This document shows positions 1-64,000 of a stretch of DNA of 64,000 nucleotides, one piece after another; within the stretch, counting starts at the first letter, position 1, and each line of letters starts with the position of its first letter. The position numbers and the translations under genes are program-made. The notes below the pieces were generated by a model. That model worked only from the letters and a program-made list of their open reading frames with translations. It did not search any database and had not been told where the DNA came from. The DNA is taken from positions 124,001 to 188,000 of the forward strand of contig CAMKRZ010000002.1 of the NCBI GenBank assembly GCA_946415315.1. The letters are read 5' to 3'. Source of the DNA: an uncultured Lachnoclostridium sp. (lineage in GTDB: Bacteria > Bacillota > Clostridia > Lachnospirales > Lachnospiraceae).

Positions 1-572
1 GTCATATCGTACTTCTTCGCCGTCTCCGCGAGAAGCGCGAGGATTGCCTTTCCGGTCTTGTAGTCAAGCGCGCCGGTCGGCTCGTCACACAGCAACAGCT
101 TCGGTTTCTTCGCCAAAGCCCGCGCGATCGCCACGCGCTGTTGCTCTCCGCCCGACAACTGTGCCGGAAAATTCTTTGCCCGGTCCGCAAGTCCGACCGC
201 TGCGATCACTTCATTTGCGTCGAGCGGTTCTCGGCAGATCTGCGAGGCAAGTTCGACATTTTCCACGGCGGTGAGATTCTGGATCAGATTGTAAAACTGA
301 AATACGAACCCGATGTCCGCGCGGCGGTATTCGGTCAGTTTCCTGCGGTCGTACGCGGATATCGTCTCGCCGTCCAAAAGGATCGTACCGTCCGTCGCGG
401 TGTCCATCCCACCTAAAATGTTGAGGATCGTCGTCTTGCCGGCGCCGGATGCCCCGACCACCACGCAGATCTCGCCCTTCTCGATCTCAAACGACACACC
501 GTTCAGGGCGGGGATGGTCACCTCGCCCACGCGGTAAATCTTCGTCACATCATGGAATTCCACGTAACTCAT
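1..572 (-). CDS. ABC transporter ATP-binding protein, LolD/MacB type (C-terminus beyond window)
   Basis: This is the ATPase subunit of an ABC transporter of the LolD/MacB/FtsE-like branch, which energises FtsX-type permeases for lipoprotein, peptide or drug export at the membrane. The translation starts [16 protein letters not shown]. It has a Walker A (GASGAGKTT, about residues 40-48), a Q-loop (FVFQFYNL), a signature [15 protein letters not shown] and a Walker [13 protein letters not shown], so all nucleotide-binding motifs are intact. Only about 190 residues are visible; the frame is open to base 1, so the H-loop and C-terminus lie outside. The gene starts 11 bases after the topB stop and is probably read through from it. 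The partner permease should be just beyond the left edge. The family is clear; the substrate is not. Confidence 0.93.
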
Positions 573-583
573 AGCGTTCTCCG

Positions 584-2833
584 TCAACGATAGTACGAAT
601 CCACCACACGGAACTGATTCCGCAGCACGTCATGGTCCTGCTTCGCCTTCGCGTAGTCGGTCCATTTGGTGACGTATGCCTCCAGTTTCTCGAGGTACTC
701 CTTCTCGGTCGTAACACCGTCGGCCACCTGTGTCAGACCCTTCTCCCAGCTCGCAGTGAGCTCCGGGTTGAGGAGTGACCGAATGGACACGAATACCACG
801 TAAAATACAAGCTCCCCGAGTTTCTTCGGCGTGATCACCTGTGTCTTCTTGTTGAGGTTCAGGTAGTTGATCTTGATCAGTTTATTCAGGATCTCGGCGC
901 GCGTTGCGCTCGTTCCGATACCGCTGCCCTTGATCTGCGCGCGGAGCTCCTCGTCCTCGATGAGCTGGCCCGCATTTTCCATCGCAAGGATCAGGGAACC
1001 GGAGGTATAACGCTTCGGCGGCTTGGTCTCGCCCTCGCGCAGCTCGTAACCGGACACATCGATCTTCGCGCCCTTCTTCAGTGCCTTGATCCGGTCAAAC
1101 AGCGCCGTGTCGAGCACTTCCTCGGGCTCTTCCTCGGGCTTGTCGGAGTCCTTGCCGTCCTCCTTGTCCTTGCCCTTCTTCGCCTCCTTCGCCTCGTCCG
1201 CTCCGGCGCGCTTCGCCTCGTCCGTGCCGTACAGCGCAAGGTATCCGGGATTCTCCAGCACCTTGAAACTGCTGAAGAAATGCTCGGATTTTACTTCAAG
1301 TTCCATTGAAATCTTCTGGTATTCTGCCGGCGGGTAGAAAATCGCCAGGAAACGTCGAACGATACGGTCATACACTTTCCGCGCAAGCTCGCCGATCGAA
1401 GCAAGCTCCGACTGGCCTTCGCCTGTCGGTATGATCGCGTAGTGGTCCGTGATCTGCTTATCATTGACGTACCGCGTCTTCGCGATGTTCGCGTACAGTC
1501 CGAACTCCTTGACCTGCCTCGTGTACGGCAGATATGTCTCATTCTTCGAGAGCCCCGCAAGGTTCTTCGTGATCTCCTTCGCAACCGCTGTTGAGAGCAC
1601 GCGCGCGTCGGTTCTGGGGTACGTCACCAGCTTTCGCTCGTAGAGCATCTGCGTGATCTTCAGCGTCTCGTCGGGACTGATCTTAAAAAGCCGCGAGCAC
1701 TCGTTCTGAAGCTCCGCTAAGTTGAACAGCAGCGGAGGATTCTTCTTCTCTTTCTTCTTCTCTATGTTCGTGAGCGTTGCCCGGGAACACTCCGGATCGG
1801 AACCGTCCACGAGAAAATGGTTGTCAGGGTTGTCCGTAACCGCTTTTGCAACGTTATCGGTTGCCGCGGGAACGGTTGCTTCCCCGATAGTATCTGTTGA
1901 CGCGGTCGCTGCTGTCTCTTCTTCACCGGATGGCGGATTTACCGCTTTCGCAGCTTCCTGCAAATCTTCGCTCACCGCAGGCGCTTTCACCCCGCCGAGC
2001 ATCTCGATCAAAGCCTCCGCATCCTCACGCTTGCGGAAGCCATTTTCCTTGTAGAGGAGCGGTGATTCAAAGTACTTCGAGCCTTTCACCGCGCGCCATT
2101 CGCCGTGGAACTGCTCCCCCTCGAGGGAGTACGCACCCATCACGCGGAAGAAAGGCGTCTTTACGAAATTTCGAATGTCCTGCTCCCTGCGCACGACCAT
2201 GCCGAGAACGCAGGTCATCACGCGTCCGACGGAGATCGCTCCGAGTCGGTCCACCTGCATATGACTCCGCAGAAGCGTGCCGTAGTTGATCGTCAGCGCA
2301 CGCGAAAAATTAATGCCCATCAGGTAGTCTTCCTTCGCACGCAGATACGCGGCGTCAGACAGATTGTTGTATGCCGAAAGAGGCTTAGCCTCGCGGATCC
2401 CGCGGAGGATTTCCTCCTCCGTCTGCGAGTCGATCCACACACGGCGCTTGTCCTTGGTTGCCGGCACCTTCGCCATCTGGTCGACCAGCCGGTAGATATA
2501 CTCTCCCTCGCGCCCCGAGTCGGTGCACACATAGATGCGCTCAACATCGTCGCGGTTGAGGAGCCCTTTTACAATATCAAACTGCTTCTTCACATTGCCG
2601 ATGACCTCGTATTTCCAGGTCTTCGGCAGGAACGGCAGCGTGTCAGCCTTCCACTGCTTCAGTTTCGGGTCGTAGACTTCCGGGTAACTCATCGTGACCA
2701 GGTGCCCCACGCACCACGTAACGACGCTTCCGCCGCTCTCGAGATACCCGTCTTTTCTCGAAAAATCCTCATGCAGCGCCTTCGCGAACTCCTGCGCCAC
2801 ACTCGGTTTCTCCGCAATATACAGATTCTTCAT
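584..2833 (-). CDS. topB: DNA topoisomerase III (type IA), TopB-like
   Basis: Type IA topoisomerase that passes single strands to relax or decatenate DNA; 749 residues. The N-terminal TOPRIM domain starts MKNLYIAEKPS and has the acidic motif TDSGREGEY near residue 105. The catalytic tyrosine is in TYPRTD near residue 400, and GIGTSATRAEI follows in the C-terminal part. The start at 2833 is preferred over an upstream in-frame ATG because it has an AAAGGA ribosome site and gives the usual TopB N-terminus. Two low-complexity insertions are odd: an Ala/Thr-rich stretch at about residues 295-360 and a Lys/Glu/Asp-rich linker at about 555-590. They look like solvent-exposed spacers within the toroid. 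Chromosomal Firmicute TopB and plasmid or ICE TopB are similar; no conjugation genes are visible here, so this one looks chromosomal. Confidence 0.93.
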   Translation of the reverse strand: MKNLYIAEKPSVAQEFAKALHEDFSRKDGYLESGGSVVTWCVGHLVTMSYPEVYDPKLKQWKADTLPFLPKTWKYEVIGNVKKQFDIVKGLLNRDDVERIYVCTDSGREGEYIYRLVDQMAKVPATKDKRRVWIDSQTEEEILRGIREAKPLSAYNNLSDAAYLRAKEDYLMGINFSRALTINYGTLLRSHMQVDRLGAISVGRVMTCVLGMVVRREQDIRNFVKTPFFRVMGAYSLEGEQFHGEWRAVKGSKYFESPLLYKENGFRKREDAEALIEMLGGVKAPAVSEDLQEAAKAVNPPSGEEETAATASTDTIGEATVPAATDNVAKAVTDNPDNHFLVDGSDPECSRATLTNIEKKKEKKNPPLLFNLAELQNECSRLFKISPDETLKITQMLYERKLVTYPRTDARVLSTAVAKEITKNLAGLSKNETYLPYTRQVKEFGLYANIAKTRYVNDKQITDHYAIIPTGEGQSELASIGELARKVYDRIVRRFLAIFYPPAEYQKISMELEVKSEHFFSSFKVLENPGYLALYGTDEAKRAGADEAKEAKKGKDKEDGKDSDKPEEEPEEVLDTALFDRIKALKKGAKIDVSGYELREGETKPPKRYTSGSLILAMENAGQLIEDEELRAQIKGSGIGTSATRAEILNKLIKINYLNLNKKTQVITPKKLGELVFYVVFVSIRSLLNPELTASWEKGLTQVADGVTTEKEYLEKLEAYVTKWTDYAKAKQDHDVLRNQFRVVDSYYR

Positions 2834-2897
2834 GTCTGTCCTTTCCCTTTCTCCGAGTGTCCCCATTGTACCACAGTGACTCCGTGAACGCAAGCAA

Positions 2898-4994: not shown

Positions 4995-5154
4995 ACTCTC
5001 CCTCCCATGTAAACCGAAGCGGTCGGCTGCTCCGCAAAACCGGGCAACCTCATCCCCTTCTGTCCATTAGTACCGTTTAGGGAACAAAAATCGCCGTTTT
5101 TTCGTTTGGGTGCATCATTTTCCGCGATTTACGCGTTTGACGAACGATTTCCCG

Positions 5155-10208: not shown

Positions 10209-11321
10209 TCAGATCAGCGTCATCAGATTCACATACTCGCGTCCCAGGCTTGTCGCAACATTCCTGTTGACGATCTTGCCGTCATAGACGTTCGCGCCGT
10301 TCGCAAGGCCCGCGTTCTTCTTCATCGCTGCCTCAAAACCGAGGTCGGCGATCATTTTCCCGTAACGGAACGTTGCGTTCGCAAGCGCCACCGTCGAGGT
10401 GTACGGAACCGAGCCGGGCATGTTGCCGACACAGTAATGAACGATGCCCTCCTCGATAAATACGGGATCGTCGTGCGTCGTCACGTGCGAGGTCTCGCAG
10501 CAACCGCCCTGGTCGATCGCGATATCGACAATGACAGCGCCCTTCTTCATGAGCTTCAGGTGCTCTCTGCGCACCAGCTTCGGTGTCGTGCCGCCCGGGA
10601 TGAGAACGGAACCGATTACAAGATCCGCGGTCTTCAGGCATTTGCGGATGTTGCCCTCGGTGCTCATCAGCGTCGTGATGGACGAGCCGAAAATGTCGGA
10701 CAGATAGGAAAGGCGGTTGAGATTCACGTCGAGAAGCGTAACATTTGCGCCTACGCCCACTGCCGCTTTCGCAGCGTATGTGCCCGCGATACCGCCGCCG
10801 ATGATGACAACGTTGCCGGGTGCAACGCCCGGAACACCGCTCAGCAGAAGGCCGCGTCCGCCGAACTTCTTCTCAAGGTATTTTGCGCCTTCCTGAATGC
10901 TCAGGCGACCCGCGATCTGGCTCATCGGGCGAAGGCAGGGAAGATTGCCCGCCTCGTCGGTGATCGTCTCAAACGCTACGGCCTTTACCTTGCGCTCCAC
11001 AAGAGCGTCCGTGAGCGCGGGGTTCGGTGCAAGATGCAGATATGTGTAAAGGATCTGTCCCTCTCTCATGCGGTCGTACTCGCACTCCTCCGGCTCCTTG
11101 ACCTTGACGATCATGTCCGCCTGTGCCCATACATCCTCCGCGTTGCCGAGGATCTTCGCACCCGCTTCCTCATACTCCGCATCGGCAAATCCGGCTCCCT
11201 CGCCGGCACCCTGCTCGACAAGCACGGTGTGTCCCCCATTGACAAATGCCGCCACGTTGTCCGGCGTCAAACCTACGCGAAACTCCTGATTCTTCAGTTC
11301 TCTGGTTGTTCCGATGATCAT
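10209..11321 (-). CDS. ald: alanine dehydrogenase
   Basis: NAD-dependent alanine dehydrogenase (L-alanine to pyruvate plus ammonia), 370 residues, the usual length. The N-terminus MIIGTTRELKNQEFRVGLTP is typical. The substrate lysine is in VKVKEP and the catalytic histidine in YTYLHLAPN. The NAD-binding Rossmann motif is VVIIGGGIAGTYAA near residue 170, and HYCVGNMPGSVPYTST near residue 300 is also diagnostic. The ribosome site is GGAGAAGG. The 169-base upstream gap contains one CATTTTCC octamer (11428) and a possible extended -10 (TGGTAAACT), but no convincing -35. Confidence 0.97.
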   Translation of the reverse strand: MIIGTTRELKNQEFRVGLTPDNVAAFVNGGHTVLVEQGAGEGAGFADAEYEEAGAKILGNAEDVWAQADMIVKVKEPEECEYDRMREGQILYTYLHLAPNPALTDALVERKVKAVAFETITDEAGNLPCLRPMSQIAGRLSIQEGAKYLEKKFGGRGLLLSGVPGVAPGNVVIIGGGIAGTYAAKAAVGVGANVTLLDVNLNRLSYLSDIFGSSITTLMSTEGNIRKCLKTADLVIGSVLIPGGTTPKLVRREHLKLMKKGAVIVDIAIDQGGCCETSHVTTHDDPVFIEEGIVHYCVGNMPGSVPYTSTVALANATFRYGKMIADLGFEAAMKKNAGLANGANVYDGKIVNRNVATSLGREYVNLMTLI

Positions 11322-11490
11322 TGATTTCCTTCTCCTTTGTCTGGTTTCTCGGCAAATAAGGCTCGCTTATCGCCGCAGGCGTCCCCGCATTTTCGGTTGC
11401 GACATTCCGGGCTATGCCGGTCAGTCGCATTTTCCGTGGTGCGCCTTGGCAGTTAGTTTACCATAGTTTGCCTGTCTGCGCCACATTTTT

Positions 11491-12748: not shown

Positions 12749-14101
12749 TTACTTGATCTTTACAAGATGTCCGTTCTTCTTCATGGACTCGATGATCGCA
12801 TCCACATGCTTCTCACAGATTTCGTAAGTCTCTGCCTCAGACATGACGCGGAGCACGGGCTCTGTTCCGCTCGGACGAAGAAGCACACGGCCGGAATTGC
12901 CGAGTTCCGCCTTGCAGGCCTCAACCTGAAGGTTTACAGCCGGGTCTTCCATCGTAGCCTTCTTGTCGTCAACCACAACGTTCTTGAGAACCTGCGGATA
13001 CATCTCCACCTCGGACGCCAGCACCGAAAGAGGAAGCTGCGTCTCGATCATGACCATCATGACCATGATCGCCGTGAGGATACCGTCACCGGTGCGCGCG
13101 TATTTGCGGAAAATGACATGGCCGGAGTTCTCGCCGCCGATCAGGTGGTCCTTCTCCTTCATGTTCTCATATACGAAACGGTCGCCGACTGCGGTCTTCT
13201 CGTAGTCGATGCCGATGCGGTCGAGCGCCTTGTACAGGCCGAAGTTCGACATGATCGTCGTGACAACCGTGTTGCTCGGCAGCTGGCCGTTCTTCTTGAG
13301 ATGTTTCGCGCAGATGTACATGATCTGGTCGCCGTTCACGACGTTGCCGTTCTCGTCCACCGCCAGGCAGCGGTCCGCATCACCGTCAAATGCAAAACCG
13401 ACGTCTACATTGTTCGCCTTCACGAACTCCTGCAGTCCCTCAATATGAGTGGAACCGCAGCCGCGGTTGATGTTCGTGCCGTTCGGCTCGTTGTTGATCA
13501 CAAGCGTCTTCGCGCCGAGAGCATCAAATACGGAGCGGGCGATCATCCAGGAGCTGCCGTTTGCGCAGTCAAGCGCAACCTTGCGGTTCTCGAACGACTT
13601 GGTAGCCACGTTGGTGAGGTAACCGATGTAGCGGTTGCGTCCGGTGTAATAGTCCACCGTGCAGCCGATGTTCTCGCCCTTCGCGAACGGGATCTCCTCG
13701 ATCTCACCGTCGATATACTTCTCGATCTCATCCTGAAGCGCATCGTCCATCTTCTCGCCGTCGCCGTTCATCAGCTTGATGCCGTTGTCGGTGTAAGGGT
13801 TGTGGCTCGCGCTGATCATAACGCCGCAGTCAAAGCCGTCCGTTCTCGTGATGTACGATACGCACGGAGTCGTCGTTACATGCAAAAGATACGCATTCGC
13901 GCCGGAGGACGTGATGCCTGCAGCGAGCGCATTTTCATACATGTAGGAGGAACGTCTCGTATCCTTGCCGATCACGATGCGTGCCTGTCCGTTCTTGCTG
14001 TAGTGCCAGCCGAGGTACCGACCGATCTTGAATGCATGCTCCGCCGTCAAAACAACGCCGGACTCACCGCGAAAACCGTCAGTTCCGAAATATTTGCCCA
14101 T
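12749..14101 (-). CDS. glmM: phosphoglucosamine mutase
   Basis: Converts glucosamine-6-phosphate to glucosamine-1-phosphate on the way to UDP-GlcNAc and peptidoglycan. 450 residues, full length. The start MGKYFGTDGFRGESG is diagnostic, the phosphoserine loop is GVMISASHNPYTDNGIK near residue 100, the metal loop is AFDGDADRC near 240, and the C-terminal phosphate loop is RPSGTEPVLRVM. It has a strong GGAGG site. It lies between nagB (upstream, 94-base gap) and the NahK-like gene (downstream), so the three probably form an amino-sugar operon. In many Firmicutes glmM follows ybbR; here a ybbR gene lies about 50 kb away instead. Confidence 0.98.
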   Translation of the reverse strand: MGKYFGTDGFRGESGVVLTAEHAFKIGRYLGWHYSKNGQARIVIGKDTRRSSYMYENALAAGITSSGANAYLLHVTTTPCVSYITRTDGFDCGVMISASHNPYTDNGIKLMNGDGEKMDDALQDEIEKYIDGEIEEIPFAKGENIGCTVDYYTGRNRYIGYLTNVATKSFENRKVALDCANGSSWMIARSVFDALGAKTLVINNEPNGTNINRGCGSTHIEGLQEFVKANNVDVGFAFDGDADRCLAVDENGNVVNGDQIMYICAKHLKKNGQLPSNTVVTTIMSNFGLYKALDRIGIDYEKTAVGDRFVYENMKEKDHLIGGENSGHVIFRKYARTGDGILTAIMVMMVMIETQLPLSVLASEVEMYPQVLKNVVVDDKKATMEDPAVNLQVEACKAELGNSGRVLLRPSGTEPVLRVMSEAETYEICEKHVDAIIESMKKNGHLVKIK

Positions 14102-18627: not shown

Positions 18628-18659
18628 AAAAAAGGCTCATTTTCCGAGGAAAATGAGCC
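18628..18659 (-). terminator. terminator built from an inverted pair of the CATTTTCC octamer
   Basis: Perfect 12-bp palindromic arms GGCTCATTTTCC (18634-18645) and GGAAAATGAGCC (18648-18659) with a 2-base centre. On the minus strand it is followed by TTTTTT. It is the second terminator downstream of the aquaporin gene. Each arm contains the window-wide octamer CATTTTCC, an arrangement like the uptake-sequence terminators of Haemophilus and Neisseria. Confidence 0.85.
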
Positions 18660-19613: not shown

Positions 19614-19642
19614 ATCGTACACCGTTCTTCGGAAAATGGCAA
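19614..19642 (-). promoter_or_regulatory. aqpZ promoter candidate, overlapped by a CATTTTCC octamer
   Basis: Minus-strand -35 TTGCCA (19637-19642), 17-base spacer, -10 TACGAT (19614-19619). The octamer at 19631-19638 straddles the -35/spacer boundary. Confidence 0.5.
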
Positions 19643-24065: not shown

Positions 24066-24121
24066 CAAAAGAATCACGCCTGCACCTGAAAAAGAGCATT
24101 TTCCGCGTGTTTTCTTTCATC

Positions 24122-42076: not shown

Positions 42077-42102
42077 ATCTTGAGGAAAATGAGGAAAACC
42101 AA

Positions 42103-47345: not shown

Positions 47346-47445
47346 TTATATTAATTTATTCATACCGTGTGGAAAATGTTCTGAAGCCGTGGAAACTGCA
47401 ACTGCCTGCGCGGGCGTCCTCTCCGCGTACGTCTTTACTTTCCGC

Positions 47446-48772: not shown

Positions 48773-50476
48773 CTAAACCGGCTTGTATCCGCTCTTCATC
48801 GAGCAGATGCGGTTGAACACCAGCGCATCCGGCTTGCTGTCCTTGCAATCTACGCAGAAATATCCGCTGCGCAGGAACTGGAACGTATCGAATTCTTTCG
48901 CGCCGGCAACCGACGGCTCAACAAAACCGTTGCATACCGTGAGCGAGTTCGGATTGACATTGACTTTGCCGGTCTCCTCGTCATACACGCCCTTCTCCTC
49001 ATCCACGAGATTCTCGTAGAGGCGGATCGTCGCAGGAACAGCGGTCTTCGCGTTGACCCAGTGAATCGTTCCCTTGACCTTGCGGTCGGCGCACTCGCCG
49101 CCCTTTGTCGCAGGATCATAGGTGCAGTGAACACATGTTACGTTGCCGTCCGCATCGGTGTCATAACCGGTGCAGCGCACGAAGTACGCGCCCATCAGGC
49201 GGACTTCATTACCCGGGAAGAGGCGGAAATACTTCTTCGGAGGCTCCACCATGAAGTCCTCTCTCTCGATGTACAGCTCGCGTCCGAACGGAACCGTACG
49301 GCTTCCGAGAGATTCATTTTCCGGGTTGTTCGAAACCGTAACATCCTCGGTCTCGTTCTCGGGATAATTGTCGATCACCAGTTTGACCGGATCGATCACC
49401 GCCATGACACGCGGCTTCTTGAGTTTGAGATCCTCGCGGATGCAGTACTCAAGCATCGCGTAGTCCGAGATGGAATTGCTCTTCGAGACGCCGCTCAGCT
49501 CCATGAACAGTTTCAGGGATTCCGGTGTGAATCCGCGGCGGCGCAAGGCCGCGATCGTAACAAGACGGGGATCATCCCAGCCGTCCACCGTTCCCTCCTC
49601 GACAAGGCGCTTGATGTAGCGCTTGCCGGTGACTACATTTTTCAGATACAGCTTGGCAAACTCGATCTGCTTCGGCGTACCGTCGATCGTATCCTTGTAA
49701 CCGCACTCGATCATCACCCAGTCGTAAAGCGGGCGGTGATCCTCGAACTCCAGCGTGCAGATGGAATGCGTGATACCCTCAACCGCATCCTCGATCGGAT
49801 GCGCAAAATCGTACATCGGATAGATGCACCACTGATCTCCCGTGTTGTGATGCGTCATGCGGGCCACACGGTAAATGACGGGGTCGCGCATGTTGATGTT
49901 CGGCGACGCCATATCGATCTTCGCGCGCAGAACCTTCGATCCGTCCGGGAATTCTCCGTTCTTCATGCCCTCAAAGAGACGAAGGTTCTCCTCGATGCTG
50001 CGGTCACGGTACGGGCTGTTCTTGCCGGGCTCCGTGAGCGTGCCGCGGTATTCGCGGATCTCATCGGCCGAAAGATCGCAAACAAACGCCTTGCCCTTCT
50101 TGATCAGGCGCACGGCTGCCTCATACATCTCTCCGAAATAGTTGGAAGCAAAAAACAAACGGTCTTCAAAATCCGCACCGAGCCACCGTACATCCTTCGC
50201 GATGGATTCCACAAACTCCGTCTTCTCCTTCGTCGGATTCGTGTCATCAAAGCGCAGGTTGAACTGACCGCCGTACTTCTTCGCAAGACCGTAGTTTAAA
50301 AGGATTGCCTTCGCATGGCCGATATGAAGATATCCGTTCGGCTCCGGCGGGAACCGTGTGATGACCTTCTCACAGCTGCCCTCTGCAATATCCTTCTCAA
50401 TGATCATCTCAATGAAGTTTTTGGATACCGGCTCCTCGCTCGTACCTGCCGGCATCGTCACATTCGTTAAATCCAT
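48773..50476 (-). CDS. glnS: glutaminyl-tRNA synthetase
   Basis: 567-residue class I synthetase attaching Gln to tRNA-Gln. The HIGH motif is in [16 protein letters not shown] near residue 45, and [20 protein letters not shown]-like and [23 protein letters not shown] follow; the anticodon-binding beta barrels begin near 345. The second signature, VMSKRKL in E. coli, here aligns to [12 protein letters not shown], so the serine-lysine pattern is altered. Most Firmicutes use the Glu-tRNA amidotransferase route; a GlnRS occurs only in some clostridia and is probably an old transfer. GGGAGG site at 50476. Confidence 0.96.
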
Positions 50477-50515: not shown

Positions 50516-50642
50516 CAAAACAATAACAATGAAAAGCACAAAATATAGTTTTTTCAAAATATTTCACCACAATTTCTTCCGTCGTATCGACGCGCCCGGA
50601 GGCGCCTGCATTTTCCGCAAAATCAGAATGTCCGATCCGCCG

Positions 50643-50683: not shown

Positions 50684-52564
50684 GCGATACTTCCGATAAA
50701 TGTGGTAGTAAAGGTCCGATCTTCCTTCTTCGGACGTCATATTCTCAAGTTTCTTCCGCAGTTCCTCGTCCTGCTCGATGAACGAGATGATCTTCGGATT
50801 GTAGTGCGTGCCTGCTGCCTTGCGGAACTCTGCCAGTACCGCGGAAAATCTCTTGCCGCGGGCATAGTTTCGCCCGAACACGTCCGTGGCAGCATCCATG
50901 CAGTCGCAGACGGTCAGAAGATCGATCAGGATGCGGTAGCGGCTTGTGCGGTTGTCGAAGAATTTCGGATAACCGCTGTTGCCGTCGTAGCTGCGATGAT
51001 GTCCGAGCGCGATCTCAGCGTAGTTCTGCAGGTGCGGATTGCGCATCAGAATCTCATAGCTCCACTTCGGATGGTATTTGATATAGGAATACTCCATGTC
51101 GGAGAGGCGACGGATCTGCGTATTGATGATGTTCGCGATCAGGATCTTACCGATGTCGTGGCAGCGCGCCGCATTGTACATGAGCGTCATCAGCTCTTCC
51201 TTGCGCGCGGCAACCTCGCGGAGATCCTCCGTCTCCAGCACCGTCGTAAACAGCTCGGGATGGGCGTCGATCAACCGGTCGAGGATCGTCTTCGACAGCT
51301 CGCCGGTCATAACCGTATGGATCAGGGTGGCCATCTGGCGGCTGATAACCATGCTGTCGATAAACTCGATCGCCACTTCCAGTATGTCGATATAGCCGAT
51401 CAGATCATACAGCAAATGGTACAGCGCCTGGTCAAGATACTCCTTGCATGCGCATTCGCGCGGGATCGTCTCGATGTAGGTCTTCACCTCATAGAGGAGC
51501 TCTGCCTTCATGCGCTTCTTCTTGTCATCATCGCACGAGAACTCGTCGATCATCTCGAACATCGGCTTGGTCGTCGTCGTGATGACGGCAAACCGGCTGT
51601 CATCAGGCTGTTCATACCAGTTCGGATCGTTGAAGTCGTACTCTTTCGTGATCGTGCGGCTGTACGAGCGAAGCAGCGTGAACGTCTGCTCCGGCTTCAG
51701 CAGTCCCGAGTAAAATGCATACACGATGTAACCGACATACACTTTCATGTCGCGCTGTTCCACCGGCAGTTTCGTCTGTTCGATAAATCCGATGGGGTAC
51801 GCCGGTCCGATGATCTCCTTTAGCTGAACATCCACAGCCTCCCAATGCAAGGCAGCCATGAACATCACGTCCGTGCCGACTTCATTTAACGGTTTCTCAA
51901 GCGTCTCCCAGATTTCATCTGGGAAGAGTCTGCGGTACTTGCGTATCTTCGAGAGATTGTTGAAGCATCCGATCATTCGGTTGACGTTCGGCTCGAAGCG
52001 CGAGCGCTCCATCTCATACTGTCCGTGCAGCGTGTCAAACACACGGCGCACATCCGCGTAGAACGCCTCATCGTCGTCCTGATGCATTTTCCGAAGATAA
52101 TCGATCCGGTCGATATAACCGCTGACCCACTCCGCCTGTTCGATCGCATACTTCCGGAGGCGCCCCTCCACGTTGAGGAATGCGTTGTTGGAAAATGCGC
52201 ACCGGCATGCGCGCTCCATGTACTCGTTGCCGGTTGACTGGTAGTACTCCCAGAGCAGTTTGAATATCTGGGATTCCATCACGTCGTCGTACATGGCGCT
52301 GTTGTAGTACTCGCTCGCTCCTTCGAAAAGCTCCATCGCCGTCTTGTCATCAAGCGGCGAAGAACCGTATAGATACGGATTGATCAGATTATTGAGATCC
52401 TGCTCCGTCTTGCTGTAGTAATCGCGCACAAGCTCGGATTTGCGGATCAGGCAGGCATTCCAGGAAGACTGCTCATTGGTCCGAAGCAGTTCCTTCTCAA
52501 TGCGGTCGACGTCCTCAAGACGTTTGCGGTATTCCGCGTACAGTTCCGGTATTGTTCCTGCCAT
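50681..52564 (-). CDS. HD-GYP-like domain protein with long N-terminal region
   Basis: 627 residues, no signal or membrane helix. The C-terminal third is an HD-type phosphohydrolase: RCHDIGK near residue 469, the second histidine region IKYHPKWSYEIL, HHRSYDGNSGYPK near 522, and DCMDAATDVFGRNYARGK. The order and the DGxxGYP motif match HD-GYP cyclic-di-GMP phosphodiesterases, but the usual HHE is HHR, so activity is uncertain. The first 440 residues are helical and not recognised. The ATG at 52564 was chosen because the GGAGG site abuts an ATG six bases earlier. Confidence 0.82.
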   Translation of the reverse strand: MAGTIPELYAEYRKRLEDVDRIEKELLRTNEQSSWNACLIRKSELVRDYYSKTEQDLNNLINPYLYGSSPLDDKTAMELFEGASEYYNSAMYDDVMESQIFKLLWEYYQSTGNEYMERACRCAFSNNAFLNVEGRLRKYAIEQAEWVSGYIDRIDYLRKMHQDDDEAFYADVRRVFDTLHGQYEMERSRFEPNVNRMIGCFNNLSKIRKYRRLFPDEIWETLEKPLNEVGTDVMFMAALHWEAVDVQLKEIIGPAYPIGFIEQTKLPVEQRDMKVYVGYIVYAFYSGLLKPEQTFTLLRSYSRTITKEYDFNDPNWYEQPDDSRFAVITTTTKPMFEMIDEFSCDDDKKKRMKAELLYEVKTYIETIPRECACKEYLDQALYHLLYDLIGYIDILEVAIEFIDSMVISRQMATLIHTVMTGELSKTILDRLIDAHPELFTTVLETEDLREVAARKEELMTLMYNAARCHDIGKILIANIINTQIRRLSDMEYSYIKYHPKWSYEILMRNPHLQNYAEIALGHHRSYDGNSGYPKFFDNRTSRYRILIDLLTVCDCMDAATDVFGRNYARGKRFSAVLAEFRKAAGTHYNPKIISFIEQDEELRKKLENMTSEEGRSDLYYHIYRKYR

Positions 52565-55812: not shown

Positions 55813-55999
55813 GTTACCCTTCTTTCTGCGCCGAAGCGCTTGTTCCTTCTCCTTATAGAGGATGGCATTCCGAAAACACAGGATCAACTGCATTTACGGA
55901 CCGTCACACATCTCTGAAAATGCTGCTGTTATCAAGGATGTATGGCCATTTTCCGCGTCCGTTACCCCAGGGAAACGACACGTATTCTATAATAAAATA

Positions 56000-56066: not shown

Positions 56067-57767
56067 TCAGGCGCGCATCTCGATGATCGGCGCACCCTTC
56101 TTCCGGATGTAGTCTCCCGTGATGGTCACCGTGCCGATCGTGTCATCCTTCGGAATCTCAAACATGATATCCAGCATGAATTCCTCAATGATGGAGCGAA
56201 GCGCGCGCGCACCGGTGTCGCGCGAAACGGCTTCCTCCGCGATGACATCAAGCGCGGACTCATCAAACAGAAGTTTCACCTCGTCCATCGCAAGAAGCTT
56301 CTGGTACTGCTTGAGGATCGCGTTTTTCGGCTCTGTGAGGATGCGCTTCATCGCCTCCTTATCAAGCCCGCGAAGCGCGAAGATCATCGGCAGACGCCCG
56401 ATAAACTCGGGAATCATGCCATACTCGCGCAGATCCTCGGTCGTGGTCTTCGTGAGAAGGTCCGGATCCTTGTCGTAAGTATCTTTCAAATTGGCGTTAA
56501 AGCCCATGGTAAATGACTTCGTCAGACGCGTCTTGACGATCTCATCGAGGCCCGGGAACGCTCCGCCGCAGATAAACAGGATGTTCTTCGTGTTGATCAT
56601 CGTCTGCGGAACCATCGCGCTCTTGCTGGAGGCACCGACCGGCACTTCCACCTCGGCGCCCTCGAGAAGTTTCAGAAGCCCCTGCTGCACACTCTCACCG
56701 CTGACATCACGGCTTGTCGTATTTTTCTTCTTGGCGATCTTGTCGATCTCATCGATAAACACGATACCGTGCTCCGCGCGCTCCACGTCGTTGTCCGCGT
56801 TGGCGAGCAGCTTGGACAGCACGCTCTCCACGTCATCACCGATATAGCCGGCCTCCGTCAGAGAAGTCGCATCAGTGATCGCCAGCGGAACATTCAGAAG
56901 CCTCGCAAGCGTCTGTACAAGATAGGTCTTGCCGCAGCCGGTCGGTCCGATCATCAGCATGTTGGATTTTTCGATGGTCACGTCATCGCGGAACGCATCC
57001 TCCTCCTGGCGGCGGACACGCTTGTAATGATTGTAAACTGCCACGCTGATGACTTTCTTCGCATAATCCTGACCGATCACATACTCGTCAAGGCGCGCTT
57101 TGATCTCGTGCGGCGCAGGAAGCGCAGCGATGTCCATGATATCCTTGTCTGCCTCTCCTGCCTCAGCTGCCTCTTCTTCCTTCGTTTTCTTCTTCGGACG
57201 CGGGCGCACATTTTCCCCCTGCATCATCTCGGGGAAAACAAATTTCACGCCGGCGAGCGGCATTCCGCCGAACAGCTTTTTGAACAGCTGGCCCGGATCG
57301 ATCCCCCCTTCCACACCGTCCTTACGTTCCGGTTTCTCCTGATCGTCGGTATCGTCTTCCGGAATGACGTTGCTCTCGATCGTGATCGTCACATTCGAAT
57401 CATCCGCATCGTCTTCCGGGTCGGAATGGATCTCGAAAGAGTCCGTTTTCTTCGTGTTCGCATCGTCTGCCCGCGCTGCATCCCTGCCGGTTGTCCGCGT
57501 TGCGGGATCGTCTTTTTTCCCCTCTCCGGAGGACGGTTTGTTCTGTTCCGCGTTCTTCGAGGAAGCCAGTTTCTGCGCCTGCGCAGCCATCGCGCTCGCC
57601 TGATCCAGAAGTCTCTGCATGCAATTGCTGCACACAGGCATTCCCGGAGGAACCGTCACCATGTTTCCGACGTCCTTTTCGCTCTTTCCGCAAAGCATAC
57701 AGAACTTCGGCTTTCTCTTGTTCTCATCATTTCTGTTATCGTTATTGTTTGTATCGTTTGTACTCAT
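56067..57767 (-). CDS. clpX: ATP-dependent Clp protease ATP-binding subunit ClpX with acidic insertion
   Basis: 566 residues against about 420 for typical ClpX. N-terminal zinc-binding dimerisation domain with CMLC (Cys 23, 26) and CSNC (Cys 46, 49). AAA+ core from about 210: Walker [10 protein letters not shown] near 275, pore loop GYIGDD, Walker [11 protein letters not shown], and [10 protein letters not shown]. The ClpP-docking loop reads MGF where IGF is usual. Between them, about residues 60-205 form a disordered Asp/Glu/Lys-rich insertion, including a conserved-looking [19 protein letters not shown] patch. The unfoldase function should be intact. ATG at 57767 has a GGAAA site. No clpP is adjacent. 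Confidence 0.95.
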
Positions 57768-58060: not shown

Positions 58061-59281
58061 ATGAAATTTCTGAAAAATCTGACTCTCGTCCTTTGTTTCC
58101 TGCTCATTGCGGCCGGAACCTGCTATGGCGCGATTCATTTCCTGACGAACGAAAAAGATGCGACGAAGGATGGCAAATCCAACGCAAACATAACCGTAAC
58201 GTCCTCGGTGACGAAGGCTCCGACTTCATCCGAACCGCAGCCGACGCCTTCCGTCGTGCTGAAGAAGACGGATTCGGTGAAAGTCGAGAACGTATCCGAT
58301 GTCATCATCAGCGATTTGGCGAAAAATGTACTTCCTTCCGTTGTGCAGATCAACTGCAAGGTCGCTATGAGCGATTTCTGGGGGCGCACACAGACCGGTA
58401 CATCACAGGGTTCGGGAATCATTCTGGATTCCGGTGAGGGTCTTCTGTACATTGCCACCAACCACCATGTGATCGAGGATGCCACGGCCATCACCGTCAT
58501 TTTCCCGGACAGTTCCGAGGCTGAGGCAGAGCTCCTCGGTTCCGATGCCGCTGGCGATCTCGCGATCCTGACAGTCGCCACTGACAAACTCAGTGACGAT
58601 GCCCTCGCATCCTGCCGCGTGGCTTCTCTCGCCACCGAAACTCCGACCGAAGTCGGTGATATGGTTGTTGCTCTCGGAAACGCGCTCGGCTACGGTACTT
58701 CCGTCACGGTCGGCTACGTGAGCGCTCTCGACCGCGAGGTGTCCGGTGACTACGGCGAGTTTCTTCTGATCCAGACGGACGCCGCCATCAATCCCGGAAA
58801 CAGCGGCGGCGCGCTGGTCAACATGAAGGGTGAGGTCATCGGCATTAACTCCATGAAATACGCCGAAAGCTACTCCCGCATTGAGGGCATGGGCTTTGCC
58901 ATTCCGATCACGCAAGCTCTCCCGATCCTCAACGAACTGAAAAAGCAGAAATCCTTCCCTGCGGAGGAAGCAGGTTATCTCGGCGTCTACATCACAACCG
59001 TGACATCCGAGATGCAGCAGACATTCGGATGGCCGAAGGGCGTCTATGTCTCATCGGTTATGGAGAACAGTGCCGCTGCTTCCGCAGGTCTGATCTCCGG
59101 CGATATCGTCCTCTCCGTCAACGGCATTCGCGTGTATGATACGGAACAACTGATCTCGCGCGTTACCTCGTATCAGGCCGGCACCGAGATCAATCTCGTC
59201 GTGAGTCGGGAAAATGATTCCGGCCGCTCGGAGATCACCGTCCCCGTCACACTGATGGTGCGCGACGACATCAAAGACTGA
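58061..59281 (+). CDS. htrA: HtrA/DegP-like membrane-anchored serine protease
   Basis: 406 residues. N-terminal signal anchor (about 6-27), a Ser/Thr/Pro-rich stalk, a trypsin-like domain with the catalytic triad in ATNHHVIED (His), GDLAILTV (Asp) and INPGNSGGALVN (Ser), then one PDZ domain (from about 300, EAGYLGVYITTV, ASAGLISGDIVLSVNG). It degrades or refolds misfolded exported proteins outside the membrane. The start at 58061 has a GGGGGA site. Monocistronic and divergent from clpX, so two protein-quality-control genes share one intergenic region of 293 bases. Confidence 0.95.
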   Translation: MKFLKNLTLVLCFLLIAAGTCYGAIHFLTNEKDATKDGKSNANITVTSSVTKAPTSSEPQPTPSVVLKKTDSVKVENVSDVIISDLAKNVLPSVVQINCKVAMSDFWGRTQTGTSQGSGIILDSGEGLLYIATNHHVIEDATAITVIFPDSSEAEAELLGSDAAGDLAILTVATDKLSDDALASCRVASLATETPTEVGDMVVALGNALGYGTSVTVGYVSALDREVSGDYGEFLLIQTDAAINPGNSGGALVNMKGEVIGINSMKYAESYSRIEGMGFAIPITQALPILNELKKQKSFPAEEAGYLGVYITTVTSEMQQTFGWPKGVYVSSVMENSAAASAGLISGDIVLSVNGIRVYDTEQLISRVTSYQAGTEINLVVSRENDSGRSEITVPVTLMVRDDIKD

Positions 59282-59380: not shown

Positions 59381-60475
59381 TCACAGCACCTCCGCGCACT
59401 TCGCAAGCGCGGAAGCGATCACCTTGTCCATGTCGTAGTACTTGTACTCGCCGAGACGTCCGCCGAAGATCACTTTCGTCTGCTCGTCCGCGAGCGCACG
59501 ATACCGCGCATAGAGCGCCCGGTTGGCTTCGTCTCCGACCGGATAGTACGGCTCCTCGCCGGGCTTCCACTCGGTCGGATACTCCTTCGAGATCACGGTC
59601 TTCGGCTGCTTGCCGAACACAAAATGCTTGTGCTCGATTATGCGCGTGTACGGGATCTCACGCTCCGTGTAGTTGACAACGGCGTTGCCCTGATAGTTGT
59701 CCGTATCAAGCAACTCGTGCTCGAACGTCACCTTTCTGTAGGCGAGATTTCCGTAACAGTATCCGAAGAACTCATCGATCGCACCGGTATAGATCACCTT
59801 CTCTGCCTGCGCGTCCCAGCTCTCGCGATCCGCGAGATAATCGACTCCCAGCCGCACCTCAACGCCGTCGAGCATGCGCTCGACCATCTTCGTGTATCCT
59901 TCCGTGGGAATGCCCTGGAACCGGTCGTTGAAGTAGTTGTTATCATACGTAAAACGAAGCGGCAGCCGCTTGATGATCGAGGCCGGAAGGTCCTTGCAGT
60001 CGCGTCCCCACTGCTTCTCCGTGTAGCCCTTCACGAGCTTGACGAAGACGTCGCGACCGACCATGGAGATCGCCTGCTCCTCGAGGTTCTTCGGCTCGGT
60101 AATGCCCTCCTTGGCAATCTGAGCAGCGATGATATCCTTCGCCTCCTGCGGCGTCTTGATGTTCCACAGGCGACTGAACGTGTTCATGTTGAACGGCAGA
60201 TTGTACAGCTCGTCCTTATAGACCGCAACCGGCGAATTGATGTAGTTGTTGAACTCCGCGAACTGATTCACGAAATCCCACACCGCACGATCCGATGTAT
60301 GGAAAATGTGCGCTCCGTACCAGTGTACCGGAATCCCTTCCACGTCCTTGCAGTACGCGTTGCCGGCGATATGATCCCTCCGGTCGATGACAAGCACGCT
60401 TTTCCCCTTTTTCTTCGCTTCATAGGCAAATGTCGCACCGTACAGACCGGCGCCGACGATCAGATAATCATACAT
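59381..60475 (-). CDS. glf: UDP-galactopyranose mutase
   Basis: Flavoenzyme converting UDP-galactopyranose to UDP-galactofuranose, for surface glycans. 364 residues. FAD motif DYLIVGAGLYGATFAYEAKKKG, GNAYCKDVEGIPVHWYGAHIFHT, KLVKGYTEKQWGRDCKDLP (the conserved Trp and Lys), and the C-terminal FGGRLGEYKYYDMDKVI. It follows the IspD/TarI-type gene on the same strand, which suggests a role in cell-wall polymer precursor supply; no galactofuranosyltransferase is in the window. Confidence 0.97.
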   Translation of the reverse strand: MYDYLIVGAGLYGATFAYEAKKKGKSVLVIDRRDHIAGNAYCKDVEGIPVHWYGAHIFHTSDRAVWDFVNQFAEFNNYINSPVAVYKDELYNLPFNMNTFSRLWNIKTPQEAKDIIAAQIAKEGITEPKNLEEQAISMVGRDVFVKLVKGYTEKQWGRDCKDLPASIIKRLPLRFTYDNNYFNDRFQGIPTEGYTKMVERMLDGVEVRLGVDYLADRESWDAQAEKVIYTGAIDEFFGYCYGNLAYRKVTFEHELLDTDNYQGNAVVNYTEREIPYTRIIEHKHFVFGKQPKTVISKEYPTEWKPGEEPYYPVGDEANRALYARYRALADEQTKVIFGGRLGEYKYYDMDKVIASALAKCAEVL

Positions 60476-60567
60476 TTCGCAACCTTTCTCCCATTTTCCG
60501 ACGATATCTCACACCCGGAAAGGAATCTTTATTCGGACTCTCTTACTGTCTGTTTGTTCGGAGTTGA

Positions 60568-61314: not shown

Positions 61315-61329
61315 AGCAACAAACCTCCC

Positions 61330-63009
61330 TTATGCTTCCTTCCCCAGTAAGCGGTTGACCGCGCAGAACATGGCGCGGATCGATGCACGCGTGATGTTGG
61401 AGCTGATCCCGACGCCGAAGGTCGTCCGACCTGTTACATTGTCCTGCATCTGCACGTACGCGGCTGCCTGCGCCTCGGAACCCGAGTTGAGCGCGTGCTC
61501 CGTGTAGTCCAGAATGCGGATGTCGAAGCCGAGTTCCTGCTGAAGCCCCTTCTTCACCGCGTCGATCGGTCCGTTGCCGTAGCAGTCCATCTCCGCATCG
61601 GTTCCGCGGTAGTTGTACCACAGATGCGCGTGCGTCGTGTACTCCTCCTCCGTATCGGTGCGGTCGTCGATGCTGCACCGCAGAAAATGAAGCGGCTTCT
61701 TACGCTCAAGATACTCGCTCCGGAACACTCCGAAAATGTCCTCACGCGTAAGCTCGCTGCCGAGCGTCTCCGCGAAACGCTGTACGCGCGCGGCGAACTC
61801 CCGGTGCATTTCCTTCGGCAGATTGAAGCCGTAATAGTTCTTTAAAACATACGCGACGCCGCCCTTGCCGGACTGCGAATTGATGCGCACAACCGTCTCG
61901 TACGTGCGGCCGATATCCTCCGGGTCGATCAGGAGATACGGCACTTTCCACTCTCCGTCCCCGTCCTTCGCCATCGTCTGGAAGCCCTTGCTGATCGCGT
62001 CCTGATGACCTCCGGAAAATGCAGTGAACGCGAAGCGTCCCGCATAGGGATGCCTCGGGGAGATCGGCATTTTCACGAGTTCCTCGTAACTCTCCATGAT
62101 CGAGTCGATATCCGACAGTGCAAGCTCGGGGTCGATCCCGACCGCATACAGATTATAGGCGAGCGTAATAATATCCATGTTGCCGGTGCGCTCTCCGTTG
62201 CCGAACAACGTGCCCTCCACGCGCTGTGCCCCCGCCATGAGCGCGAGTTCCGCACTGGCGATGCCTGTCCCGCGGTCATTGTGCGTATGTACGCTTACCG
62301 TAACGAACTCGCGGTATTTCAGCCGGTCGGACACCCATTCCACCTGGTCGGCATAAACATTGGGCGTGTTCAGCTCCACAGTCTCCGGCAGGTTGATGAT
62401 CGCGCGGCGTTCCGCGCACGGCTCCCACGCATCGAGTACTGCGTTGCAGATTGCCACGGCGTACTCCGGCTCCGTTCCGCTGAAACTCTCCGGGGAATAT
62501 TCGAGCACAAGCTCTCCGTCAAACCGGTCCGCAAACTCCCGCACTTTCCTCGCAGCGCGGACTGCAATCTCCGTGACCTCGGCTTTTGATTTGCCGAAGA
62601 CCACTTCTCTCTGCAGCACAGACGTGGGATTGTAGATGTGGAAAATGACTTTGGGCAGTCCCGAAACCGCCTGACATGTCTCCTCGATCTGTTCCGGGCG
62701 GCACTGTGCTAGCACCTGGATGTAGACGTCGTCCGGCACCAGACCGTTCTCCGCCAGCGCCCTCACAAACTCCCGCTCCGTGCTCGATGCCGCAGGGAAT
62801 CCGACCTCGATCTCGCGGATCCCGAGGTCACAGAGAATGCGGAACAGACGCAGTTTCTCCTCCACCGTCATGGGCTCCACGAGCGCCTGATTGCCGTCCC
62901 GAAGATCTACACTGCACCACACCGGCGCCTTTGTGATCTGTGCCGACGGCCAGCGGCGCTCCGGATAGTCCGGCACCGGAAATTTGTGATATTTTCCTGG
63001 CTGTAACAT
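61330..63009 (-). CDS. leuA: 2-isopropylmalate synthase (LeuA type 2)
   Basis: First committed step of leucine synthesis: acetyl-CoA plus 2-oxoisovalerate. 559 residues, the longer actinobacterial/clostridial LeuA type. Opening KYHKFPVPDYPERRWPSAQITKAPVWCSVDLRDGNQAL, catalytic TIM barrel to about 340 with SVHTHNDRGTGIASAELAL and GNGERTGNMDI, and a C-terminal leucine-feedback domain after about 430. GGGGAG site six bases ahead. No other leu genes are here. A hairpin in its leader lacks the features of a T-box. Confidence 0.96.
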   Translation of the reverse strand: MLQPGKYHKFPVPDYPERRWPSAQITKAPVWCSVDLRDGNQALVEPMTVEEKLRLFRILCDLGIREIEVGFPAASSTEREFVRALAENGLVPDDVYIQVLAQCRPEQIEETCQAVSGLPKVIFHIYNPTSVLQREVVFGKSKAEVTEIAVRAARKVREFADRFDGELVLEYSPESFSGTEPEYAVAICNAVLDAWEPCAERRAIINLPETVELNTPNVYADQVEWVSDRLKYREFVTVSVHTHNDRGTGIASAELALMAGAQRVEGTLFGNGERTGNMDIITLAYNLYAVGIDPELALSDIDSIMESYEELVKMPISPRHPYAGRFAFTAFSGGHQDAISKGFQTMAKDGDGEWKVPYLLIDPEDIGRTYETVVRINSQSGKGGVAYVLKNYYGFNLPKEMHREFAARVQRFAETLGSELTREDIFGVFRSEYLERKKPLHFLRCSIDDRTDTEEEYTTHAHLWYNYRGTDAEMDCYGNGPIDAVKKGLQQELGFDIRILDYTEHALNSGSEAQAAAYVQMQDNVTGRTTFGVGISSNITRASIRAMFCAVNRLLGKEA

Positions 63010-63068: not shown

Positions 63069-63100
63069 GTTTGTTGTTTCTCTTGTCTTAACTGCGCAGA

Positions 63101-63367
63101 TCAAAGAAGCCCGAAGCCGGTCTCAACGCCCTCGATCAGCTCGCGGAGAGCATCCTCCTCGCCCTCACCGTCGCAGACGATCTCGATCTCTTCATCCTTC
63201 TTCACCTGTGCGCTCAGAATACCAAGAACGCTCTTCGCGTTGACACGGTACTCCCGGATCACAAGATACGCCATACACGGGTATGTGAGCGCTATGCTGC
63301 TCATTTTCCCGGCGGGCTTAATGTGTAATCCCTTCTCGTTTCGTACAGTTGCCTTCCCCGTTACCAT
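63101..63367 (-). CDS. HPr-family phosphocarrier protein
   Basis: 88 residues. The phosphoacceptor region is NEKGLHIKPAGKM, so His15 is kept while the usual Arg17 is Lys (GLHARPA in standard HPr). The regulatory Ser46 region is NAKSVLGILSAQV, also kept. It may be a true HPr or a Crh-like/variant HPr for regulation; a ptsI gene is not adjacent, which favours a secondary copy. GGAGG site at 63367. It lies 91 bases ahead of leuA. Confidence 0.88.
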   Translation of the reverse strand: MVTGKATVRNEKGLHIKPAGKMSSIALTYPCMAYLVIREYRVNAKSVLGILSAQVKKDEEIEIVCDGEGEEDALRELIEGVETGFGLL

Positions 63368-63443
63368 AGTTCCTCCTTCTCCGACGGCACACCCCGTACC
63401 GTCGCTACGCTCATTATGCGGATATCAAATCCGCGGTTACTCA

Positions 63444-64000
63444 TTAGGTTTCGCCGTTGTCTCCTCCCGGCTGATTGTCGCCGCCCTGATTGTCGTTGCC
63501 GCCCGGATTGTCGTTGCCGCCCGGATTGTTCTCCGTCTCATCGGGGATCAGCTCCACTAGGATCGGCACCTTCACACCGTCCTCCCTGAGGTCGTCGTCA
63601 ACGTTGGGCAGCTGGGACCGCAGCTGAATCTCCACAAGCCCCGGTTCCGTAATATCGCTGAGGTCGACATACAGGTTCAGGTCGGATTCGGTGATCTCCT
63701 GCAGGATGTCACTCAGATCACGCGCACTGAAGGAAACCGTTTCATTGGAAAATGTATATTTCAGCGTCTCCGCAAGGTTGCGGACGGTGATGGTCGCCGT
63801 GCGTACCTCAAACGGCTTGTCGCCTTCCTTCTCGACCGGAATCAGGATCGATATTGTGTCCGTAGCGGCAGCCACATACACGTTATCCGGCAGGAATCTG
63901 CCAATGGAGAATGCGCTCTCGACGACATCCTCATACAGGTCGGTCTTCTTGTATGTGACGACGATCTGATCGATCCTGTCAAGCACTTCGCGTTCCGCTG
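63444..64000 (-). CDS. YbbR-domain protein (N-terminal part beyond window)
   Basis: C-terminal 185 residues; the frame is open to base 64000. It shows YbbR-type repeats (VYVAAATDTISILIPVEK, ILQEITESDLNLYVDLSDITEPGLVEIQLRSQLP) and ends in a Gly/Asn/Asp/Gln-rich tail (PGGNDNPGGNDNQGGDN), encoded by short tandem repeats at 63450-63530. YbbR proteins are membrane-anchored and often act with the diadenylate cyclase CdaA and GlmM; glmM here is about 50 kb away, so cdaA may lie just outside the right edge. Confidence 0.88.
   Translation of the reverse strand, partial: AEREVLDRIDQIVVTYKKTDLYEDVVESAFSIGRFLPDNVYVAAATDTISILIPVEKEGDKPFEVRTATITVRNLAETLKYTFSNETVSFSARDLSDILQEITESDLNLYVDLSDITEPGLVEIQLRSQLPNVDDDLREDGVKVPILVELIPDETENNPGGNDNPGGNDNQGGDNQPGGDNGET

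Follow-up and report, generated by a model that had tools for sequence, protein, structure and literature searches.

An abundant, non-polar octamer as a probable DNA uptake sequence in a genus of Lachnospiraceae

In a 64,000-nucleotide stretch of the genome of an uncultured Lachnoclostridium sp. of the family Lachnospiraceae (GenBank assembly GCA_946415315.1; 2.93 Mb in 42 contigs; designated G000), the octamer CATTTTCC, which reads GGAAAATG on the opposite strand, was found in large excess. This stretch, C2:124001-188000 (contig CAMKRZ010000002.1), was analyzed at its full length and is referred to below as the window. The octamer probably serves one Lachnospiraceae genus as a DNA uptake sequence, for which we infer uptake, competence, and a receptor. 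It is read in this way because the word is abundant, lacks polarity, is independent of codon use, is preferred between genes, and pairs in inverted orientation; because its near-misses are graded and variants of it occur in other genera; and because genes for a type IV pilus, ComEA, and ComEC are present. An earlier reading, made from the sequence of the window alone (the sequence-only reading), had likened the word to an uptake sequence, and both the genomic signature and the machinery genes reported here support that likeness.

The window contained 46 copies, 25 on the plus strand and 21 on the minus strand, compared to a mean of 2.7 and a maximum of 8 in 100 dinucleotide shuffles. Every coordinate and strand listed in the sequence-only reading was confirmed, and the same number of copies followed by G (20 of 46) was obtained. 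The word was the most frequent octamer in the window, ahead of GATCATCG with 35 copies. Our own gene calls placed 15 of these copies between genes, with an intergenic share of 7.7% of the window; the figures given earlier for the intergenic preference were 16 copies in about 10%. Enrichment extended beyond the window, so that one condition named in the sequence-only reading as refuting did not hold. The whole genome held 1,763 copies (873 forward, 890 reverse), about 1 per 1.7 kb, versus 35 copies (17 + 18) of the reversed word.

Composition and codon use were evaluated in 835 kb of the organism's own genome (28%), the window included. When the copies were masked before fitting, a third-order Markov model predicted 55 copies, and 502 were observed; with an unmasked third-order model, the excess of the octamer was still the largest of all octamers (z, 53). 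Tetranucleotide composition, the lowest order of the tetra- to hexanucleotide composition named in the sequence-only reading, is therefore no explanation. Models of order k-2 for the window alone absorbed the word, because such models contain the word itself. When codons were permuted among synonymous positions inside each of 569 predicted genes (718 kb), the mean count was 46 (maximum, 56 in 60 runs), compared to 381 observed copies, and all six frames were above expectation (observed/expected, 16/4, 86/3.4, 70/8, 19/3.5, 49/8.5, and 141/18.5), which agrees with the earlier argument that codon use is not the cause. Seven other octamers were compared in the same way: GATTTTCC, a one-base variant, occurred 112 times versus 34 expected and CCATTTTC occurred 73 times versus 37, and the remaining five were at 0.4 to 1.5 times expectation. 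Fifths of genes ranked from least to most typical, compared for a depletion in recently acquired DNA, had 0.44, 0.59, 0.61, 0.53, and 0.45 copies per kb. The codon-shuffle control is itself imperfect, since some background was seen in genome G144 (see below), and enrichment between genes was therefore taken as the stronger test. Intergenic DNA, 11.6% of the sampled bases, held 115 of the 502 copies, and an order-2 model of intergenic DNA predicted 9.5 copies where 110 were counted.

Other octamers were also enriched in the same 835 kb, namely, CTTGCCGA (152 versus 61), CTTGCGGA (159 versus 66), CCTTGCCG (162 versus 71), and CAGTTTCT (103 versus 38). The longest octamer-free gap in the sample spans 14.2 kb, from L035:16116 to about L036:10300 (about 86 to 100 kb on contig C5 of G000). 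Its G+C content (44%) and codon use are atypical, and of the four of its proteins that were scanned, two are glycosyltransferases of family 2 and two form an ABC transporter pair of the sugar-export type; this stretch was probably acquired.

Strand use, which the sequence-only reading had described as unbiased, was even at every scale. Replichore-type polarity of the Chi, KOPS, or SRS kind was not found in the window (25/21), in the C2 stretches (92/85 over 264 kb), or in the whole genome (873/890), and the octamer strands were mixed even though the GC skew was negative in each C2 stretch read. Inside genes, where 387 of the 502 copies lay, the coding strand showed CATTTTCC in 173 cases and GGAAAATG in 214. 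Since both sense and antisense are used, the word is not an RNA signal and acts, if at all, as DNA.

The fuller form of the word was clearest between genes: rarely C (the preceding base in only 10%), then CATTTTCC, G (76%), not-G, A/G, A/G, A, and A. The flank signal faded within about 6 bases of the octamer. One-base variants at base 1 and bases 6 to 8 occurred in the 835 kb at 1.8 to 3.5 times the masked third-order expectation (for example, CATTTTTC, 188 versus 56), whereas variants at bases 2 to 5 were not enriched, except for one of twelve at 1.6 times. Among intergenic near-misses, those at bases 7 and 8 were likewise enriched, and those at base 6 and with T at base 1 were enriched more weakly. 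The earlier statement that one-base variants are few held for the window, where three of them occurred 7, 7, and 5 times; their excess over expectation was seen in the larger sample. The near-miss profile is graded and in this resembles that of a binding protein.

Neighboring copies less than 60 bases apart were inverted in 25 cases and direct in 1 (binomial P, 8e-7), and spacing beyond 60 bases was near random to slightly even (coefficient of variation [CV], 0.91; Kolmogorov-Smirnov P, 0.08). The pair at 18638-18655 forms an 11-bp stem followed by a T6 tail, an intrinsic terminator (RNA fold, -21.6 kcal/mol; z, -4.56), and this terminator pair sits downstream of an aquaporin-like gene (18792-19622, minus strand). 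A hairpin pair at 33353..33382 separates dapA (33537-34481, minus strand) from dapB (32569-33324, minus strand). Between its two copies, and overlapping the first of them by a few bases, this hairpin contains ATGCCGTCTGAA, the uptake word of Neisseria in its 12-base form. No other copy occurs in the 835 kb (naive expectation, 0.10; its 10-mer, 6 copies versus 1.6), and this one is most likely due to chance.

The word was also found in relatives. All 18 of the same-genus genomes searched carried 221 to 1,672 copies, whereas their counts of the reversed word were 10 to 99; in twelve genomes of the same order but other families, 47 to 288 copies were counted. In a sample of the same-genus genome G009, one of three that were sampled, the Markov test gave 42 versus 5.1. 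Among 200 genomes drawn from 199 genera of the family, an at least 15-fold excess of CATTTTCC over the reversed word was detected in only four, G000, G002 (same genus), G119 (1,616 versus 82), and G103 (783 versus 41); the next genome was below 9-fold. A variant, CATTGNCC, was abundant in G103 (2,302 versus 162 reversed) and G184 (1,171 versus 83 reversed) and about 6-fold in excess in G102, G092, and G156. In the stretches of G103 that were read, the dialect comprised CATTGCCC (35 versus 3.4), CATTGACC (36 versus 4.7), and CATTGGCC (23 versus 2.4), and 120 kb of G184 contained CATTGCCC 39 times versus 2.0 expected. The words of the genera have CATT..CC in common, and the fifth base distinguishes the dialects. 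Excess between genes was present in G119 (5 versus 0.6), G103 (8 versus 1.5), and G184 (12 versus 0.6), all of them small counts; per kb, intergenic DNA was denser in copies than genes only in G184 and slightly in G119 but not in G103 (0.49 versus 0.82). Close inverted pairs numbered 6 versus 1 direct pair in G103 and 0 versus 1 in G184, and there were none in G119. The loci nearest to that of G000 by PilB (92 to 95% identity) are from metagenome-assembled genomes of Lachnospiraceae/Lachnoclostridium, several of them from rumen, reticulum, or omasum.

Two further candidates were dropped. In G169, the excess of CATTTACC (28 versus 5.8) was limited to coding DNA, with 4 versus 3.2 copies between genes, and G215, in which CATTGNCC was abundant (631 versus 62 reversed), had 1 copy versus 0.7 expected in the one 20-kb stretch read, a small sample that is rich in tandem repeats. 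No strong word of this kind was detected in 40- to 80-kb samples of G144, G179, G208, G160, G174, and G054.

Other enriched or repeated sequences were observed in some of the genomes. G077 (33% G+C, with a pilus operon; L207-L211, L185) has weakly enriched, different octamers, CAAGTGCA (27 versus 7.3), CACTTGCA (26 versus 7.2), and GCACTTGA (21 versus 5.0), possibly another dialect. CGGCATTG/CAATGCCG is enriched in G184 (36 versus 4.3; L200-L205), and the near-palindrome GGCATTGCC results. The single-contig genome G215 starts with 4 kb of tandem arrays of 36- and 48-base units (L206:2-4290), perhaps a gene for a repetitive surface protein.

The sequence-only reading had proposed a search for uptake machinery, and a type IV pilus with PilT, ComEC, and ComEA was found in the organism's own genome. 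The pilus operon encodes PilB (T2SSE and MshEN domains), PilT, PilC (T2SSF), PilM, two short pilins, a prepilin peptidase (PilD), and minor pilins, three of which have the N_methyl motif. ComEC has 745 residues. ComEA, with 222 residues, has a helix-hairpin-helix repeat; a model of the repeat region scored above its cutoff, and the NCBIfam comE model gave 100 bits, below its cutoff of 152. Of the 11 operon proteins queried, 10 or 11 were matched in every one of the 13 genus relatives that were read, among them G006 and G017. ComEC was present in 34 of 34 genomes searched and is therefore uninformative as a correlate. PilB was detected in 93 of the 200 family genomes, including those of the organism's own genus, G119, and G103. 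PilM, as recognized by Pfam, was rejected as a presence marker, being too divergent; it had no match in G119 although PilB is present there. The G119 stretches read yielded PilB and PilT and no further pilus genes. In G103, genes for PilM, PilN/O-like proteins, and pilins occur in two clusters apart from each other (L117 and L118). In G015 (C63) and G016 (C57), the ComEC matches are split over two frames, in G016 with a stop inside each; these are either broken genes or assembly errors.

The most speculative part of the reading, a lead and not a result, is a candidate receptor of the FimT/FimU/GspH fold, suggested by a structure model. The gene for this minor pilin lies in the pilus operon (L035:8755-9264, which is G000:C5:78755-79264). 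Its product was matched in 13 of the 13 genus relatives read, and the isoelectric point (pI) of the head is 9.2 in G000 and 6.9 to 9.9 over the 14 members. N_methyl was the only Pfam domain over cutoff. The L059 orthologue was modeled (12 sequences; predicted local distance difference test score, 84.5), and the nine best matches among solved structures were only EpsH, FimU, and an XcpGHIJK pseudopilus chain, with a probability of 1.00 and E values of 4e-3 to 2e-2, none reaching 1e-3. At the equivalent position in G103, between matches to both flanking minor pilins, there is a basic pilin (L118:7573-8100; head pI, 8.6) with no sequence match to the G000 candidate at that place.

A 2025 paper states that uptake sequences are known only in Neisseriaceae and Pasteurellaceae (PMC12616744), and among the open-license papers listed in literature searches, none described an uptake word for Firmicutes or for Lachnospiraceae. 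In Haemophilus and Neisseria, copies lie both inside and between genes, and dialects follow taxa (PMC1852404, PMC3630211); in Neisseria and Pasteurellaceae, inverted pairs of uptake words are found in terminators (PMC1852404). The octamer resembles the DNA uptake sequence (DUS) of Neisseriaceae, whose receptor is ComP, in its many genic and intergenic copies, terminator pairs, taxon dialects, lack of polarity, and the presence of a type IV pilus and ComEC. It differs in that the word is unrelated (8 to 9 bases, CATTTTCC(G) versus GCCGTCTGAA) and the host belongs to a Gram-positive family. With the uptake signal sequence (USS) of Pasteurellaceae it shares a core of about 9 bases with a weaker flank (3' and purine- and A-rich here) and near-misses, and the candidate receptor, like that of the USS system, would be a minor pilin of the FimT/FimU/GspH fold; ComN/PpdA is the predicted USS receptor (PMC12616744). 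The USS is a different word with Gram-negative hosts, and its two AT tracts extend to about 32 bases (PMC12616744), compared to a flank of about 6 bases here. FimT of Legionella, a minor pilin that binds DNA whatever the probe tried (PMC8897410), is similar to the candidate in that the latter is small, mostly basic, and predicted to have a GspH-like fold, and it differs in its GRxR motif and in binding regardless of probe.

Somewhat less firmly than the assignment of the word itself, we favor a third, independent origin of self-recognizing DNA uptake, the first in a Gram-positive phylum, with dialects of one word (CATT, T or G, N, CC) in several Lachnospiraceae genera that would be read by a minor pilin of the pilus and with DNA traded preferentially among kin. 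In the proposed mechanism, a retractile type IV pilus would bind external double-stranded DNA bearing the word via the minor pilin, and retraction by PilT would draw this DNA across the wall as far as ComEA. One strand would then be imported by ComEC, and recombination would replace the resident allele. Alleles bearing the word would be taken up more often, so that the word would accumulate by biased gene transfer (molecular drive), under which single sites would continually be gained and lost.

Several observations weigh against this interpretation. In G144, which has no full-length PilB, the codon-shuffle test gave 13 versus 3.0 copies; between genes there were 2 versus 1.5. The same-genus genomes G006 (19 versus 12.1) and G017 (18 versus 13.2) had little excess in the samples tested despite having the pilus operon and ComEC, with some excess between genes in G017 (11 versus 2.9). 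In G184, which has the variant, PilB was not found at an E value of 1e-70, in a genome that is 87% complete. PilB was present in 3 of 4 word-bearing genera versus 89 of 195 others, which is not a significant association (Fisher P, 0.34); the pilus is common and the words are rare, so a pilus alone does not suffice. Among 21 inverted pairs within 30 bases, only 3 had at least 6 T in the adjoining 8 bases and 7 had at least 5, and 9 lay inside predicted genes. The C-terminal GRxR motif of FimT was not found in the candidate receptor, which ends mostly in TGKVTY-like sequences. Lastly, conservation of single sites is not clearly above background. Of 20 sites aligned between the window and G014, which are 82% identical over 34.9 kb, 8 were intact, compared to 82 of 251 control octamers of the same composition (33%), and 7 sites were present only in G014; between the window and G005, the corresponding numbers were 1 of 7 and 22 of 106 (21%). 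At the pilus locus, 2 of 12 octamers were intact in own-clade pairs versus 596 of 2,046 controls (29%), and in two other clades, 6 of 19 versus 966 of 3,762 (26%) and 2 of 5 versus 101 of 1,032 (10%). Octamer density is kept while single sites come and go. This turnover hardly speaks for selection acting on individual sites; it fits drive by biased uptake, or any function that needs density alone.

One such function would be that of a site for an abundant chromosome-organizing or recombination protein, such as a nucleoid protein, a Chi-like stimulator, or a domain organizer, needed once per 1 to 2 kb. The near-random to slightly even coverage (CV, 0.91) and the turnover of sites are consistent with this explanation, which would also account for G184 without PilB, and it is the strongest of the alternatives, albeit an unlikely one. 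Like Chi, KOPS, and SRS, the octamer is over-represented across the whole chromosome, but those words are strand-polar and the octamer is not (92/85, 873/890). Inverted terminator pairs are what uptake words show (PMC1852404). Furthermore, the near-absence of the word from the close relatives G006 and G017 is not easily explained by a nucleoid protein.

It is less probable still, and decidedly so, that the word owes its abundance to being recognized by a DNA methylase or restriction-modification system or to being a HIP1-like repeat. An exact 8-base core would suit such a site, and type I, III, and IIG methylases normally have non-palindromic sites. Restriction sites, however, are as a rule avoided in genomes and not enriched, HIP1 is a palindrome, and the gradient of near-misses and the extended flank are unlike an all-or-none enzyme site.

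There is very little chance that the word merely reflects codon-pair, amino-acid, or oligonucleotide bias. In favor of this, many genomes of the family draw have a weak excess of CATTTTCC over its reverse, and the excesses in G144 and G169 are both limited to coding DNA. In the organism's own genome the excess is largest between genes, is present in all six frames, and is not shared by one-base variants at bases 2 to 5, and for this genome the explanation is largely refuted. Equally improbable is a transcription-factor half-site (the CodY box is AATTTTCNGAAAATT) or part of a start site (GGAAAATG ends in ATG): the intergenic preference and the resemblance of two facing copies to the CodY palindrome speak for it, but most copies lie inside genes in both senses, divergent intergenic regions are not preferred (they make up 14% of the length and hold 14 of the 110 copies placed), copies do not peak at start codons, and CATTGNCC of the other genera does not fit the CodY box. 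A regulator or methylase site that explains every copy, which the sequence-only reading had named as refuting, is therefore improbable.

The positions of the copies in the window are given in Table 1. The window also encodes a 984-residue protein (15537-18491, minus strand), the middle of which is matched weakly by SH3 and cell-wall-binding models (best, 56 bits versus a cutoff of 720); judged from these matches, it is probably cell wall associated.

Table 1. Octamer copies and inverted pairs in the 64-kb window
Feature	Positions	Strand	Basis
CATTTTCC copy	257..264	+	exact match
CATTTTCC copy	973..980	+	exact match
CATTTTCC copy	2041..2048	+	exact match
CATTTTCC copy, intergenic	5116..5123	+	exact match, gene calls
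CATTTTCC copy	10353..10360	+	exact match
CATTTTCC copy, intergenic	11428..11435	+	exact match, gene calls
CATTTTCC copy	13108..13115	-	exact match
CATTTTCC copy	15873..15880	-	exact match
CATTTTCC copy	16263..16270	-	exact match
Inverted pair (18638 +, 18648 -; 2 bases between), intrinsic terminator	18634..18659	-	RNA fold
Inverted pair (19631 -, 19654 +), intergenic hairpin	19630..19662	.	fold z -3.04
CATTTTCC copy	21283..21290	+	exact match
CATTTTCC copy	21494..21501	-	exact match
CATTTTCC copy	21875..21882	-	exact match
CATTTTCC copy, intact in same-genus G014	23810..23817	-	exact match, alignment
CATTTTCC copy, intergenic	24097..24104	+	exact match, gene calls
CATTTTCC copy	26212..26219	+	exact match
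CATTTTCC copy	27191..27198	-	exact match
CATTTTCC copy	30077..30084	-	exact match
CATTTTCC copy	30929..30936	-	exact match
Inverted pair (33353 -, 33375 +), strong hairpin, between dapA and dapB	33353..33382	.	fold z -4.21
CATTTTCC copy, intact in G005	34451..34458	+	exact match, alignment
CATTTTCC copy, intergenic	34635..34642	-	exact match, gene calls
CATTTTCC copy	36297..36304	+	exact match
CATTTTCC copy	38864..38871	+	exact match
CATTTTCC copy, intergenic	42084..42091	-	exact match, gene calls
CATTTTCC copy, intact in G014	43592..43599	+	exact match, alignment
CATTTTCC copy, intact in G014	44298..44305	+	exact match, alignment
CATTTTCC copy, intergenic	47371..47378	-	exact match, gene calls
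CATTTTCC copy, intact in G014	49315..49322	+	exact match, alignment
CATTTTCC copy, intergenic	50609..50616	+	exact match, gene calls
CATTTTCC copy	52085..52092	+	exact match
CATTTTCC copy, intact in G014	52190..52197	-	exact match, alignment
CATTTTCC copy, intergenic	55947..55954	+	exact match, gene calls
CATTTTCC copy, intact in G014	57209..57216	+	exact match, alignment
CATTTTCC copy	58498..58505	+	exact match
CATTTTCC copy	59209..59216	-	exact match
CATTTTCC copy, intact in G014	60301..60308	-	exact match, alignment
CATTTTCC copy, intergenic	60492..60499	+	exact match, gene calls
CATTTTCC copy, intact in G014	62014..62021	-	exact match, alignment
CATTTTCC copy	62640..62647	-	exact match
CATTTTCC copy	63302..63309	+	exact match
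CATTTTCC copy	63747..63754	-	exact match

If CATTTTCC is an uptake sequence, the self-selection of DNA would have evolved again in a Gram-positive lineage, and gut bacteria of the Lachnospiraceae would be naturally competent. The word would suggest a tag for DNA meant for laboratory transformation, and several related dialects would be available for finding what the receptor reads. Thick-walled anaerobes of the gut would then exchange DNA preferentially with their kin.

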